Below are positions 27,549 to 32,893 of a stretch of DNA of 41,847 nt, one piece after another. Below the pieces are notes generated by a model. The model made no database searches. It worked only from the letters and a program-made list of their open reading frames with translations, and was not told the origin of the DNA. Both the position numbers and the translations under genes were made by a program. The first letter of the stretch is position 1. Each line of letters opens with the position of its first letter. This stretch comes from a virus. The stretch is taken from positions 1-41,847 of the IMG/VR virus record IMGVR_UViG_3300047171_000023. One strand, written 5' to 3'.

Positions 27549-28829
27549 ATGGTTGATATCATCGGACTTTATGACTCCCTGCTGCATGCCTCAATCGGCG
27601 GGTTTCCGTTCGAGGTGCTGGACACGCGCGAGGAATTCGGGCGGCGGGTGCAGCGGTTCCTGTTTCCGGGGATCGATCAGCCGACCTTCCAGGACATGGG
27701 CGTGCAGGATGGCGTGCTCAGCGTGACCGGCCTTCTGGTCGGCGATGATTACGTGCAGCAGGCGCAGAACCTGCGCTTCGTGCTGCGCCAGCCGGGGCCG
27801 TTGACGTTGGTGCATCCGTGGCTGGGCAATCTGGCCGTGGTGCTGAACGGGCCGAACGCCGCCTCGATCAGCTTGGTGAATACCGAGCTGCGGATCGCGC
27901 GGTTCAGCCTGTCGCTGTTCCTGTATGTGCCGCCCCCGCCGTCGCTGGCTGATACGCTTTCGGCGATCGGCACGGCGGTGACCAGCACGATCAACGATGC
28001 CGAGGGATGGATCGCCGGCGTGCTGGCACCCGTGGTGCTGCCGCTGGCGGCGTTTGCCTATGCGCAATCGTGGGTGCGCTCGATTTCAACCGGGTTCGCG
28101 GCGATCGTGAATTCGGGCAGTTCGGGCGCTGCGATCGGGGCTGCGACCGCACCGGCGATCGCGGCGCTGGTGGTGCCGGCGACGACGCCGAACCAGGCCT
28201 GGGCGATCGCCACGGCGGCGGCGGTGGCCGCGGTGCCGGCGGCGATTGTGGGGGCTGCGCAACCGGGCGTGCCATCGGCCGTCGCACCAGGTGGGGCAAC
28301 CACGGCAGCGGTCGCGGCCGCGCCGGCGGATGCGACTTCGATGTTGTTGCAGGCGGTGAGCATTGCGACGGCGGGGAACGCCAACCCATCGCCGGGCCCG
28401 GCGCTGGCGGCGGCGTTGCAGGCGATCATCGTCGCGAACGCGGTGCAGGCATCCGCGCTGATCGCCTATGATTCGGTGCAGGCCGCGCAGGCCGAGGCGC
28501 TGGTGCTGATGTCAGCGCTCGATGCGGCGATCGTCGCGGCCGCGACGGCCGCGCAGACCGCGCCGCAGCTGGCAGCCCCGGTGTGGGATGATCTGGTCAG
28601 CCTGAAATCCGCCCTGGCTTCGGATACCAATGCGCTGGTGGGGCGGTTGCCCTCGGTGGTGACGGTGAACACTGCTCGCACGCTGCCGGCGTGGCTGATC
28701 GCGCAATATGTCGCCGGCGACGTGCCGGGCAAGATGTACGCGACCTATGCGGATATCGTGGCGCGGAACGTGGTGGCCAACCCGGCGCTGGTACCGGGCG
28801 GCGCGCTTGAAGTGTTGCAGGTCGCATGA
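27549..28829 (+). CDS. Baseplate/DNA-circularisation protein (Mu N-like)
   Basis: The 426-aa protein has the DNA-circulation N-terminal domain: LHASIGGFPFEVLDTREEFG, RRVQRFLFPGIDQPTFQDMG and QPGPLTLVHPWLGNLAVV. The middle (about 160-330) is very Ala-rich and helical. In Mu, N is a tail/baseplate protein and is injected with the DNA, with reported circularising activity. It overlaps the hub gene by 4 bp. Confidence 0.85.
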   Translation: MVDIIGLYDSLLHASIGGFPFEVLDTREEFGRRVQRFLFPGIDQPTFQDMGVQDGVLSVTGLLVGDDYVQQAQNLRFVLRQPGPLTLVHPWLGNLAVVLNGPNAASISLVNTELRIARFSLSLFLYVPPPPSLADTLSAIGTAVTSTINDAEGWIAGVLAPVVLPLAAFAYAQSWVRSISTGFAAIVNSGSSGAAIGAATAPAIAALVVPATTPNQAWAIATAAAVAAVPAAIVGAAQPGVPSAVAPGGATTAAVAAAPADATSMLLQAVSIATAGNANPSPGPALAAALQAIIVANAVQASALIAYDSVQAAQAEALVLMSALDAAIVAAATAAQTAPQLAAPVWDDLVSLKSALASDTNALVGRLPSVVTVNTARTLPAWLIAQYVAGDVPGKMYATYADIVARNVVANPALVPGGALEVLQVA

Positions 28830-30046
28830 GCGGGTCGATCCCCGCCGCGCCGTCTTCCACCGGGCTGGCGCTCACGGTGGATGGGCATGTGTTCTCGCGC
28901 TGGATGGTGGCCTCGGTCGATCGCGATTTGCGCAATATCGCCGGCACGTTCAGCCTGACCTATGACGATAGCGGGCGCGATGCGCAGGCGCTGGTGCCGG
29001 ACCTGGATCGTGCGCCGCCGTTCGAGATCGTGCGCGCGGGCATGGCGTGCGTGATCGCGATGATCGGCAGCACGGTGTTGAAGGGCTACATCGATGAGGT
29101 TTCGGTCAAGCGCTCGGCCGGGCGGCTGAGTGCGACGATCACCGGGCGCGACATGACGGGCGATATGGTCGATTGCGCGGCCGCACCCACCGGGCCGGTC
29201 GAGTGGCGCAATTTGAATGCGCTGCAATTGGCACAGATCTTCGCCAAGCCGTTCGGGATCACCGCGCGGGCGGATGTGCCGCTGGGTGATGCGTTTCCGG
29301 TGTACGGCATCGAGGTGGGCGAGACGGCGATGCTGGCGCTCGAACGCGCAGCGCGGCAGCGGGCGCTGCTGGTGGTGAGCGATGGCGTGGGCGGCTTGCT
29401 GCTGACCAAGGGCGGGTCGAGCCGGGCGCCGGCCGCGATCCAGGTTCCGGGGAATGCGTTCGAATCGTCCTATCATTCGAACTGGCGGCAGCGGTATTCC
29501 GATTACTATGTGAAGGGCCAGACCAATCCGCGCCTGGCGCGGTACGGGCGCAAGGCTGGGCTGACCTCGGCCACCAATCCCACCAGTGCGCCCGGCGTGC
29601 CGCCGGCGGTGAGTGCGACGGTGGCGGAGGCGGCGAGCGTGCAGATGACCGGGCACGCGATCGATCCGCAGATTACGCGCTACCGGCCAACCGTGCGCGG
29701 GGTGCGCACGCAATCGGGCTCGGCATCGGTCCAGGCGCAGGCGGAATGGGCGCTGCGGGTGGCGCGCGGCATGGGCGAGCAGGCGCAGTATTCGGTGCTG
29801 GAATGGGATGTGGGGGGCGCGTTGTGGCTGCCCAACCAGATCGTTTCCGTGACCGATCCGTATGCCGATATCAACCGGGATATGCTGATCGCGAGCGTGG
29901 GCTATCGGCTGAGCAACCGGGGGCGATCGACCGTGTTGGGAATCGCCGGGCGCACCGCGTTCGACCGGATTGCGGAGCCGGCGCAATCGGAAGGGTTCAT
30001 TCAGAAAAAAGCGCCACGATCGTTCGGGCCGACGCGCAATGGGTGA
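28826..30046 (+). CDS. Baseplate hub protein (Mu P / gp44-like)
   Basis: The 406-aa protein follows the hub pattern: LALTVDGHVFSRWMVASVDR, a F-S-L-T-Y-D-D-S-G strand, DEVSVKRSAGRLSATITGRD and a C-terminal ALWLPNQIVSVTDPYADINR, then MLIASVGYRLSN. It trimerises as the D/gp27-type hub on which the spike sits. Location between N and gp45 supports this. Confidence 0.9.
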   Translation: MSGSIPAAPSSTGLALTVDGHVFSRWMVASVDRDLRNIAGTFSLTYDDSGRDAQALVPDLDRAPPFEIVRAGMACVIAMIGSTVLKGYIDEVSVKRSAGRLSATITGRDMTGDMVDCAAAPTGPVEWRNLNALQLAQIFAKPFGITARADVPLGDAFPVYGIEVGETAMLALERAARQRALLVVSDGVGGLLLTKGGSSRAPAAIQVPGNAFESSYHSNWRQRYSDYYVKGQTNPRLARYGRKAGLTSATNPTSAPGVPPAVSATVAEAASVQMTGHAIDPQITRYRPTVRGVRTQSGSASVQAQAEWALRVARGMGEQAQYSVLEWDVGGALWLPNQIVSVTDPYADINRDMLIASVGYRLSNRGRSTVLGIAGRTAFDRIAEPAQSEGFIQKKAPRSFGPTRNG

Positions 30047-30049
30047 GGC

Positions 30050-30544
30050 ATGATCGACGAGATTTTCGGCGCGCTGCGCGGGTTGGCCAACATCGGCGTG
30101 GTGCAATCGGCCAACGACACCGGCGAGGTCCAGACCGTGACGGTGATGACGGCGGATGGTGCCGTGCGCGCAGATGTCGAGGTGATGCAGATTTATGGGT
30201 TTGCCTCGCTGGCGCCGGCGAACGGGGCGATCTGCCTGCTGATCGCGGTGGGTGGCGATCCGGCGAATTTGCGGGCGTGGCCGGTGGCCGCACCCGCGGC
30301 GCGGTTCGGCGGGATGGCGGCTGGCGATACCTGCGTCTATGCGCAGGATGGTTCGCGCATCCATATCAAGCAGGGCGGCGTGATCGAGATTTGGGCCGGG
30401 GCGTCGCTCACGATCAACGCGGCCGAGGTGACCATGACCGGCACGCTGAACGTGACGACCGACGTGGTGATCGCGGGCGGATCGTACATCCATCATACCC
30501 ATCCTGACGCGCAAGGCGGTGAGACCGGGCCACCGACCGGCTAG
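30050..30544 (+). CDS. Baseplate spike (Mu gp45-like)
   Basis: The 164-aa protein begins MIDEIFGALRGLANIGVVQS and has an OB-fold region (GEVQTVTVMTADG), then a beta-helical tail (HIKQGGVIEIWAGASLTINA) ending with a HHTHPDAQ motif near residues 147-154 where histidines can bind metal at the tip, as in Mu gp45 and P2 gpV. It pierces the outer membrane. Confidence 0.9.
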   Translation: MIDEIFGALRGLANIGVVQSANDTGEVQTVTVMTADGAVRADVEVMQIYGFASLAPANGAICLLIAVGGDPANLRAWPVAAPAARFGGMAAGDTCVYAQDGSRIHIKQGGVIEIWAGASLTINAAEVTMTGTLNVTTDVVIAGGSYIHHTHPDAQGGETGPPTG

Positions 30545-30572
30545 AAAAAAATGGCAACCAGTAAAATATCAT

Positions 30573-30608
30573 TTGACGGCGATACACTGACAATGTATAA
30601 GACTTACA
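30573..30608 (+). promoter_or_regulatory. Sigma70 promoter with operator-like inverted repeat for the cargo cassette
   Basis: TTGACG (30573-30578) and TATAAG (30596-30601) are separated by exactly 17 bp, the best sigma70 match in the late region. Between and over them lies ATACA-N7-TGTAT (30582-30598), an inverted repeat positioned to let a bound protein block the promoter; TGTA/TACA also flank the -10. The surrounding 80 bp are strikingly A/T-rich. A predicted start near 30608 gives a normal 5' leader to ATG 30653 but would exclude ATG 30551. Confidence 0.7.
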
Positions 30609-30652
30609 TACCCGGTGGGATTGGCCCGCTGGACGAAGTGAGGAACTTAAAG

Positions 30653-30901
30653 ATGTCTTACACAATCCGCGAAATCGAAGCTGGTTTTCTGATCATCACC
30701 CCGGCCGGGAATGTGATTTACGGCGATGATCGCCCGCGTATCTTCCCGACCGTTGCTCACGCCGAAGCCTATATCGAATATCTCGTCCGCTTCGATGCGC
30801 CGCATCCCGGCTTGACGAAATCCCAACGCCGCGACGTTCGCCGCGAGCTCGGCGCGAAGATCGGCCTGACTTATGATCAGGCGCGCGGGTACTTCGCGTG
30901 A
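30653..30901 (+). CDS. Cargo gene 1: 82-aa protein of unknown function
   Basis: From ATG 30653 (AGGA at 30641-30644, 8 bp upstream) it encodes 82 aa: MSYTIREIEAGFLIITPAGN, an acidic/aromatic middle (YGDDRPRIFPTVAHAEAYIE) and a basic helical end (LTKSQRRDVRRELG). The frame extends upstream to ATG 30551 (116 aa), but that codon precedes the predicted promoter. No family is recognised and there is no counterpart in Mu here. It has its own promoter, so it may be expressed in the lysogen. A defence, anti-CRISPR or antitoxin role is possible but unproven. Confidence 0.65.
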   Translation: MSYTIREIEAGFLIITPAGNVIYGDDRPRIFPTVAHAEAYIEYLVRFDAPHPGLTKSQRRDVRRELGAKIGLTYDQARGYFA

Positions 30902-31296
30902 TCACAGCGTTCGCGTTGCTACTCGATCGATGCGGCCTCTCGATCCGGGAGGCCGCCGATTATCTTTCGGTGCGGCCTGATACGGTGAAATCGTGGTCGG
31001 CGGGGCGAAACCCTGCGCCGGCTGGTGCCGTTGCCGAATTGCGGTCGCTTTATCAAAAAATCGATCGCGCCGCGCGCCAGGCGCTCGCCGAGATGGCGCA
31101 GGCGCCGGAAGGCATCGATATCGAAATCGGCATCGCTGCGGACGATCATGAGGCCGGTTTACTTGGTCTGCCTTGTGTCGGCGCGCACGCGGCGCTCCTG
31201 GGCTTGATCGTCGCGGGTTCGTCATGCGCTGTCAGAATCGTGCCACGCGGATCGACCGGTGCCACGGCCGCAGCGGCGGAAATTCACCGGAAATAA
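30898..31296 (+). CDS. Cargo gene 2: HTH protein, possible autorepressor (Aca-like)
   Basis: The 132-aa protein (GTG 30898) overlaps the stop of cargo gene 1 by 4 bp. A helix-turn-helix covers about 14-37 (LSIREAADYLSVRPDTVKSW, then SAGRN), followed by a helix with P-A-P-A-G-A-V-A-E-L-R. This resembles the layout of Aca2/YdiL-type regulators (LxxSxxEAAxxI...W..GR...P..V..E). The C-terminal half is hydrophobic and unassigned. It is the natural candidate to bind the inverted repeat at 30582-30598 and repress the pair. Other HTH families are equally possible without a search. Confidence 0.65.
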   Translation: MITAFALLLDRCGLSIREAADYLSVRPDTVKSWSAGRNPAPAGAVAELRSLYQKIDRAARQALAEMAQAPEGIDIEIGIAADDHEAGLLGLPCVGAHAALLGLIVAGSSCAVRIVPRGSTGATAAAAEIHRK

Positions 31297-31304
31297 CCGG
31301 CTGA

Positions 31305-31351
31305 TTGCTCAAGCCATTGAGCAAGACGGCGATTTGCGCGCGCGCGATGAT
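31305..31351 (+). promoter_or_regulatory. Late promoter 3 (PP-like): activator palindrome plus weak -10
   Basis: TTGCTCAA-GCCA-TTGAGCAA (31305-31324) is followed by GATGAT (31346-31351) at the place where the other two late promoters have TAGTCT and TAATCT, and by ATG 31360. The -10 is weak, so dependence on the activator should be strongest here. No Shine-Dalgarno precedes the ATG. Confidence 0.68.
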
Positions 31352-31359
31352 GCGCGCCA

Positions 31360-31834: not shown

Positions 31835-32893
31835 ATGCCCTGGCCGGTTCCCGCACCCGGTGTGATTTCGGCACGCGCGGCCTCGCTGTTCGAGCAGCTG
31901 CTGCCCGGCATCGATGCGCGCAACGACAACACCGTGGCGACCACGCTGACGCGGATCACCGAGCTTGGCGCGCAGGATCTGTATTTCGAACAAGGGTATT
32001 ACGCGCAGCAGCTGATGCCCGACACCGCGACGGATTGGCTCGGGCTGCACGGCGCCGAGTGGGGCGTGCCGCAGGATCAACCCACCGCGGCGGCTGGGAA
32101 CGTGCTGGTGACCGGTGTCGCGAACGGTGTGATCGCATCCGGTGTTCAATTCACCTCGCCCGGGAAGGCGCTCTATGTCAGCACCGCCGGCGTGACGCTG
32201 AATGCCGAGGGCGCGGGCTCGATGCCGGTGGCGGCCGCCGTGGCGGGCAGTGCGGGCAATCTGCCGGCCGGCACGTTGATGACCGTGGTGAGCCCGGTCG
32301 CGCAGCTTGCGCCGCAAACCGGCACGGTCGACCCCAACGGTATTACCGGCGGCCTCGATCTGGAAAGCGAGGTGTCGTGGCGATCGCGCATTCTGGCGAA
32401 AATCCGCACCGAACCGGCCGCGGGGAACTATGGCGATTACGTCGAGTGGATCGGCGAGGCGTTGCCCGGCGCGATCGGTGTGTGTCCGCCGGGGGCTTGC
32501 GGCGGCGGCGTGGTGAACTGCGCTTTCGTGATGCCGGGGCCGACCGCGCCGACCGCTGAAGAGATCGCGGTGGTGCAGGCCTATATCGAAGGGCTGGCAC
32601 CGGTGACGGCCGAAGCGAATATCACGGTGTTCGGCGCCACGTTGCAGCCGGTCAATCTGGTGTTGCAGGTACGGCCGAATACCGTAGTGATCCAGGCGGC
32701 GGCGCAGCAGGCGCTGGCGCTGTTTTTCCAGCAGAGCCTGACGATCGGCGGCACGCTTTATATGTCCCAACTGGATGCGGCCTTGGCGACGGCGGATGGC
32801 GAGACCTATCATGAGCGCCTCGCGCCATTGGCGGACGTGGTGACACCCAGCCTGTTCACGCTGCTGACCCTCGGCACGGTGAGTTTCCAATGA
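31835..32893 (+). CDS. Baseplate J-like protein (Mu gp47-like)
   Basis: The 352-aa protein shows the baseplate-J pattern: LLPGIDARNDNTVATTLTRI, TATDWLGLHGAEWGVPQDQP, PAGTLMTVVSPVAQLAPQTG and ESEVSWRSRILAKIRTEPAA, then NYGDYVEWIGEALPGAIGV. It builds the wedge ring of the contractile baseplate. It follows gp46 by 1 bp and overlaps gp48 by 4 bp. Confidence 0.92.
   Translation: MPWPVPAPGVISARAASLFEQLLPGIDARNDNTVATTLTRITELGAQDLYFEQGYYAQQLMPDTATDWLGLHGAEWGVPQDQPTAAAGNVLVTGVANGVIASGVQFTSPGKALYVSTAGVTLNAEGAGSMPVAAAVAGSAGNLPAGTLMTVVSPVAQLAPQTGTVDPNGITGGLDLESEVSWRSRILAKIRTEPAAGNYGDYVEWIGEALPGAIGVCPPGACGGGVVNCAFVMPGPTAPTAEEIAVVQAYIEGLAPVTAEANITVFGATLQPVNLVLQVRPNTVVIQAAAQQALALFFQQSLTIGGTLYMSQLDAALATADGETYHERLAPLADVVTPSLFTLLTLGTVSFQ

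Follow-up and report, generated by a model that had tools for sequence, protein, structure and literature searches.

A mobile two-gene insert of a Mu-like phage, probably governed by a divergent Aca2-like autorepressor at the DNA and RNA level

Introduction

The acr-aca1 operons of Mu-like Pseudomonas phages are inserted sets of small variable genes combined with the gene for an HTH repressor. The Mu-like phage sequence analysed here, a stretch of 41,847 nucleotides (positions 1 to 41,847 of IMG/VR record IMGVR_UViG_3300047171_000023; hereafter the window), likewise combines, in the midst of its tail genes, a small gene of a variable kind with an HTH gene. This locus raises the question of what the two genes are, how they are controlled, and whether the first of them encodes an anti-CRISPR protein (Acr), as had been suggested by a sequence-only reading of the window.

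Results and Discussion

A self-promoted insert between two baseplate genes

Positions 30573-31296 are a self-promoted insert of two genes between the gp45 and gp46 genes of the phage, and the gene order around it is as follows.

28826-30046: gp44 gene, a Mu-like baseplate gene
30050-30544, + strand: baseplate spike gene resembling gp45, to the left of the insert (Pfam PF06890, E 3e-14)
30653-30901, + strand: gene 1, ATG start, 82-aa orphan cargo protein whose sole relative was found in locus L008 (42-43%)
30898-31296, + strand: gene 2, GTG start, 132-aa HTH regulator of predicted Aca2/YdiL fold, with Asn38 as recognition residue
31360-31833, + strand: baseplate wedge gene resembling gp46, to the right of the insert (Pfam PF07409, E 9e-20)
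31835-32893: gpJ-like gene

Genes 1 and 2 overlap by 4 bp (GTGA), and the GC content dips to approximately 0.52 across the promoter and the start of gene 1, compared with 0.64-0.71 in the surroundings. In an Acidiphilium prophage (L015/L184) with tail genes 64-79% identical to those of the window, the gp45-gp46 gap measures about 70 bp and holds no insert, and the junction is equally devoid of an insert in L175, which resembles L015. The HTH protein of L015, 67% identical to that of the window, is encoded about 3 kb downstream of gp45-gp46, beyond the tail-fibre genes, and its gene is preceded by an unrelated 114-aa cargo gene. The more distant L008, whose tail genes are mostly 35-47% identical, carries a cassette at the same gp45-gp46 junction, together with a homologue of gene 1 (42%). 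The insert thus has its own promoter and is absent from relatives at the same place (L015 and L175), as the moron proposed by the sequence-only reading should be, and the comparison supports its description as a probable exchangeable moron-like cassette inserted between gp45 and gp46. Because this junction is empty in relatives, genes 1 and 2 are not tail proteins conserved in all related phages.

A perfect 8-bp inverted repeat, TTGCTCAA-GCCA-TTGAGCAA, which is not followed by a T run, is located directly after the stop codon of the HTH gene (31305-31324). Relatives share a GCGCGCGCGCG stretch just 5' of gp46 (31334-31358) whether or not they have the insert, as seen in the gp45-gp46 gap of L015, in L008 (5390-5520) and in L177 (4350-4570); this stretch marks the native gp45-gp46 spacer.

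The HTH protein belongs to a divergent Aca2-like family

The sequence-only reading had noted a loose resemblance of gene 2 to Aca2/YdiL, and both profile search and structure prediction bear it out. The best PDB match of the HTH profile is the Aca2 protein 7EZY (E 3.6e-6, positions 7-88), and hhalign aligns the protein with Aca2 of phage ZF40 (probability 83%, E 8.7e-6). Foldseek searches with the AF2 model (pLDDT 92, pTM 0.83) returned only Aca2, YdiL or SO3848 chains as the top nine PDB matches, all near full length and with probability 1.00; this predicts an N-terminal HTH followed by an Aca2-type C-terminal dimerisation domain. By sequence profile 7EZY is the closest solved relative, and its fold also ranks among the nearest (TM 0.67/0.71), at an identity of 22% in the structural alignment. 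YdiL (1S4K) and SO3848 (2OX6), which share the fold near full length, are described (PMC8434428) from outside phages, where their genes stand alone or beside an SMI1/KNR4 gene. The Pfam model Aca2_YdiL (PF08965) scores the window protein with 16.2 bits, below its cut-off of 23.8, and matches 8 of 19 family members weakly (best E 1.3e-4). The protein is for this reason called Aca2-like and is not filed as Aca2; model and profiles support gene 2 as a putative divergent regulator of the Aca2/YdiL fold.

Its family comprises approximately 40 phage or prophage loci of Alphaproteobacteria. Initial scans gave 11 viral and 9 genome loci, and the use of a profile then gave 21 viral loci. Among 385 genomes of the class, 21 contain a relative at E 0.001, three of them strong. 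Where the title of a host record gives the class or a lower group, it is nearly always alphaproteobacterial (Acidiphilium, Acetobacteraceae, Pelagibius, Minwuia); the exception is a bin titled Burkholderiales, whose contig has the same sequence as that of a bin titled Rhodospirillales (L013/L014). The phage collection contained a single record with a partial relative, the plasmid collection none, and none of the first 19 family members matched a defence family well. The first part of the HTH coding sequence contains an 11-bp stem resembling a terminator (30932-30956), which may reflect codon constraint only.

Operator and recognition residue change together

The promoter of the insert consists of the following elements.

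30573-30578, + strand: -35 element TTGACG; in most relatives TTGAC stands a few bases 5' of the operator
30582-30598, + strand: putative operator ATACAC-TGACA-ATGTAT, overlapping the -10 element; family consensus NTACAN-N5-NTGTAN, with covarying half-sites
30596-30601, + strand: -10 element TATAAG, at a 17-bp spacing from the -35 element

These elements, the Shine-Dalgarno sequence and the 4-bp overlap are all present in the sequence as originally described, and promoter and palindrome are conserved in relatives. Taken by itself, the combination of promoter and palindrome in the window is weak: where chance predicts 0.31 matches with up to two mismatches, 1 was observed. The promoter also escaped the automatic promoter scan, because its -10 element lacks the final T. 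The same order of -35 element, operator and leader recurs 5' of the HTH gene in 34 non-redundant loci, and it is this conservation, not rarity, that leads us to judge promoter and palindrome real. The core TACA-N7-TGTA is kept in the 34 loci, two of which have one change in the left half, and the outer bases of the two half-sites change in concert (A..T in 25 loci, G..C in 7, C..G and C..T in one each). For the HTH-family genes of L016 and L130 (L130:5001-5450) neither an operator nor a leader was detected.

The outer operator bases are matched by the protein. All seven loci with a G..C operator encode Arg38, while the others encode Asn38 with the exception of L060 (Ser), and residue 38 is the alignment column most strongly associated with the G operator (Fisher 1.9e-7, as against 4e-4 for the next column). 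In a tree from which this column was left out, residue and operator each change five times; independent residue/operator pairs on supported branches number three and are all concordant, which alone is too few for significance (sign test p 0.25). An example is provided by L078, which combines Asn with ATACAC, and its sister L136, which combines Arg with GTACAC; their cargo proteins are 70% identical. A scan of viral sequences for the G-type operator, blind to the protein, yielded 37 stretches, four of them with an HTH gene; these added two new distinct loci, L208 (identical to L229) and L213, and both encode Arg38, as predicted beforehand. L130 has Arg38 but no detectable operator for comparison. 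Contacts of Asn with adenine and of Arg with guanine are textbook protein-DNA pairs. The comparison thus argues for a specificity match, in which Asn38 would pair with A..T operators and Arg38 with G..C operators, and provides strong evidence that the HTH protein reads the promoter palindrome. Gene 2 had been proposed as an autorepressor acting on the inverted repeat: the choice of target gains support from the covarying half-sites and the matching residue 38, and repression itself is what we infer from it.

A related arrangement was seen at L139:105-172, where a palindrome, TGTGTATACACA, and a hairpin, GTCGCGGGATTGGCCCGCGGC, precede a 66-aa gene; no HTH-family gene was found on this 6.8 kb contig, which perhaps represents another Aca2-like branch or control in trans.

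A two-hairpin leader RNA accompanies the HTH family

Between the promoter and the start codon of gene 1 lies a leader with two hairpins, which the sequence-only reading had overlooked.

30612-30632, + strand: hairpin P1, CCGGTGGG-ATTGG-CCCGCTGG, indicated by covariation in 33 leaders, covariance model match and minimum-energy fold
30636-30648, + strand: hairpin P2, AAGT-GAGGA-ACTT, with the Shine-Dalgarno sequence in its loop and an A-U variant of the AGGT/ACCT stem that occurs in other loci
30640-30643, + strand: Shine-Dalgarno sequence GAGG of gene 1

The covariance model R1 matches the window leader at 30612-30648 (35.2 bits, E 1e-5), and the minimum-energy fold of this leader consists of exactly P1 and P2 (z -2.9). 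P1 has 8 bp and a loop A-N-(N)-R-G that stays constant while the stems vary. In a MAFFT alignment not fitted to the structure, 88.6% of cells pair in P1 versus 75.9% in shuffled alignments and less than 48% in slid versions, double changes occur at seven of the eight pairs, and RNAalifold predicts P1 unaided. P2 has 4 bp, in most loci follows P1 at a distance of 3 nt, and presents the Shine-Dalgarno sequence in its loop, its stem occurring as AGGT/ACCT, AAGT/ACTT (window), AGGC/GCCT, AGGG/CCCT, AGCC/GGCT, CGGT/ACCG and GTGG/CCAC. Fixed 5' arms of P2 reach 282 against their own downstream sequences, whereas swapped arms give a mean of 174 and a maximum of 230 among 5000. The leader alignment fitted to the structure has 95.0% of cells paired (76.7% when shuffled) and 55 cells with double changes (versus 12.3), figures that are favoured by the fitting, since this alignment leans towards the structure. 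L004, L060, L021 and L141 lack P2 or have it displaced, and some leaders have a weak P2.

R1 searches find the leader in nearly all HTH loci. Among the 98 stretches from a scan for the promoter palindrome, every one with a downstream HTH-family gene has the leader, while R1 found none adjoining the promoter in the 80 stretches that share the palindrome and lack an HTH gene. The G-type scan gave the same picture: no leader adjoined the promoter in the 33 of 37 stretches without an HTH gene, and a leader at E <0.05 was present solely in the four HTH-linked ones. On 385 chromosomes R1 gave, beyond the known site in Acidiphilium G002, weak matches only, and Rfam has no family for the window leader. 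Operator, leader and HTH family are therefore linked and travel together.

The leader thus places stem-loops conserved by covariation at the ribosome-binding site of gene 1 and suggests that autoregulation has a further layer, at the level of translation. At L135:4253-4292 both hairpins are present with compensatory stem changes and with neither operator nor promoter palindrome, and the cargo gene directly follows an upstream gene. This leader without an operator suggests that the RNA layer can stand alone, and L135 is a possible natural case of RNA-only control.

Gene 1 is one of many unrelated cargo genes

An alternative reading of gene 1 as a 116-aa frame that opens at the ATG at 30551 would extend through promoter and leader. 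It was rejected, because conservation of that stretch is at the level of DNA/RNA and not of protein, and because the position equivalent to 30653 is where the homologue in L008 begins. The AF2 model of the 82-aa protein, built from two sequences, is fair (pLDDT 88), with a beta-rich N-terminal half followed by three helices, and a fold search with it returned nothing below E 0.06. Gene 1 has no relatives among Acr, Pfam, NCBIfam or PHROG families or known folds. A search of the 385 genomes of the class, run without positive control, returned no relative, phage records gave no significant one, and viral contigs yielded L008 alone.

Alternative small genes stand beside the HTH gene across the family: the 40 cargo ORFs in 33 loci fall into 28 clusters (BLASTP). 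Each operon has one to three cargo genes, the last of which usually overlaps or abuts the start of the HTH gene. Nearly all are orphans, as the 39 cargo proteins scanned gave one weak Pfam match, one weak NCBIfam match, at most four matches to unlabelled PHROGs and at most three weak PADLOC matches; NCBIfam and Pfam recognised no Acr in the member operons. Cargo types are also recombined. The 216-aa cargo protein of L040 fuses two types that L095 and L140 each carry on their own, and L017 combines two types found apart in other loci. In L009 and L053 the leader precedes a cargo of more than one gene, the last of which encodes a related large protein (202-246 aa). These comparisons support gene 1 as presumably exchangeable cargo, and its association with the Aca2-like regulator makes a function in anti-defence fairly probable.

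Comparison with known Aca2 systems

Aca2 of Pectobacterium phage ZF40 (acrIF8-aca2; PF08965; PDB 7B5J, 7VJO/P/Q) reportedly controls its operon at both the DNA and the RNA level (Birkholz et al. 2024, as cited in PMC12456014). It shares with the window protein, near full length, the two-domain fold of HTH and dimerisation domain, and in both phages the HTH gene is second in a two-gene operon with a palindrome over the promoter. The ZF40 leader forms a 9-bp hairpin with an AUGG loop and then a 4-bp hairpin of which the Shine-Dalgarno sequence is the 3' arm, whereas P2 of the window carries it in the loop. By score the ZF40 leader escapes R1, and Rfam has no family for it, so that the likeness rests on folding, as a shared architecture whose homology is not proven. 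In aca2-like loci of Pasteurella, too, a GC-rich hairpin is followed by a smaller one near the Shine-Dalgarno sequence.

The two systems are otherwise far apart. Identity in the structural alignment is about 14-15%, the window protein has a longer C-terminal part, the operators differ (TACA-N7-TGTA versus TGTTCGC-GATT-GCGAACA), and the window operon has no proven Acr partner. Aca1, in turn, is a single-domain HTH protein of about 79 aa (PMC9410906), whereas the window protein has the Aca2-type second domain. The exchange of cargo around one regulator is the behaviour of acr-aca loci. The analysis adds to the known Aca2 systems a distant branch that has an operator type of its own, a covarying leader and a pool of orphan cargo genes.

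Alternative explanations

A strict acr-aca operon, with gene 1 as the anti-CRISPR and gene 2 as its Aca, is a sub-case of the explanation favoured below, and a fairly unlikely one. The architecture, the Aca2 fold, the operator and the leader are all compatible with it, and Acidiphilium G002, host of the L015-type prophage, has a type I-C CRISPR system with cas1. Its array is cut by the contig end, and the seven spacers have no match beyond chance in the prophage contig, the window or the other loci, so that no self-targeting was seen; Cas1 was found in only four of nine host genomes, and a known acr lies upstream of just 3% of Aca2-like proteins in bacterial genomes (PMC9410906). With, in addition, no Acr family or fold match for gene 1, the anti-CRISPR function suggested by the sequence-only reading gained no support, and gene 1 is in our view doubtful as an anti-CRISPR in the strict sense.

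Rather unlikely is regulation at the DNA level alone, with leader hairpins that act without the HTH protein, for instance by setting a basal translation rate or through a host factor. The weak P2 of some leaders would fit, and RNA binding is assigned to the HTH protein by inference, but the leader occurs solely with the HTH family, keeps its loop while the stems vary, persists in L135 without a detectable operator, and has a similar counterpart before acrIF8-aca2 of ZF40.

Toxin-antitoxin and acr-aca operons resemble each other (PMC9410906), and a type II system, in which gene 1 would be a toxin and gene 2 an autoregulating HTH antitoxin, would share the small gene followed by an HTH gene, the overlap and the promoter palindrome. 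Antitoxins bind one cognate toxin, but here one HTH lineage is combined with some 28 unrelated cargo clusters, including two- and three-gene cargos, in place of one-to-one families; no match to a toxin family or fold was found, and a leader that masks the Shine-Dalgarno sequence is unusual for type II, which makes this reading very improbable. The reading of the two genes as a late tail-operon pair, encoding an assembly chaperone or tail factor whose HTH-like fold is incidental, was rejected as scarcely credible. The genes do lie between gp45 and gp46 in the window and L008, and there is a weak PHROG match to a tail assembly family, but they are missing there in L015 and L175, occur with other cargo elsewhere, and have their own promoter and operator.

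A model for the operon

The explanation that we favour, with a probability of roughly three in four, is that 30573-31296 form a mobile moron operon under a divergent Aca2-like autorepressor acting on both DNA and RNA, with gene 1 as its exchangeable payload. Upon phage entry or induction the near-consensus sigma70 promoter would be free and gene 1 made at once. The HTH protein, presumably translated by coupling through the 4-bp overlap, would build up as a dimer and bind the palindrome over the -10 element, closing the promoter, with Asn38 probably reading the outer A-T pair, as the comparative evidence strongly indicates. The dimer, or its HTH heads, may also bind P1/P2, mask the Shine-Dalgarno sequence and stop translation of existing mRNA, as the linkage of leader and HTH family and the Aca2 precedent suggest. 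Expression would thus be limited as phage copies increase. The payload itself is most likely a small counter-defence protein, whose overproduction would be costly.

Significance for phages of Alphaproteobacteria

Aca proteins are the main bait for the discovery of anti-CRISPR and other anti-defence genes. The branch described here has no NCBIfam model and its leader no Rfam model, and the literature consulted contained no mention of it. Together with a window protein under the Pfam cut-off, this means that guilt-by-association searches would miss the branch. The R1 covariance model and the HTH profile provide a specific search tool, as two blind scans returned gene and leader together or neither, and the match of Asn38 or Arg38 to the operator makes repressor specificity testable. 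The chances appear about even that these loci represent an uncatalogued alphaproteobacterial Aca2-like branch, in which a dimer with a one-residue DNA code and a leader clamp guards at least 25 unrelated, uncharacterised counter-defence proteins that are mobile as cassettes. The branch is usable as bait for many new anti-defence genes, and its leader would extend the control of both DNA and RNA by one HTH protein to a distant branch of the Aca2 fold.
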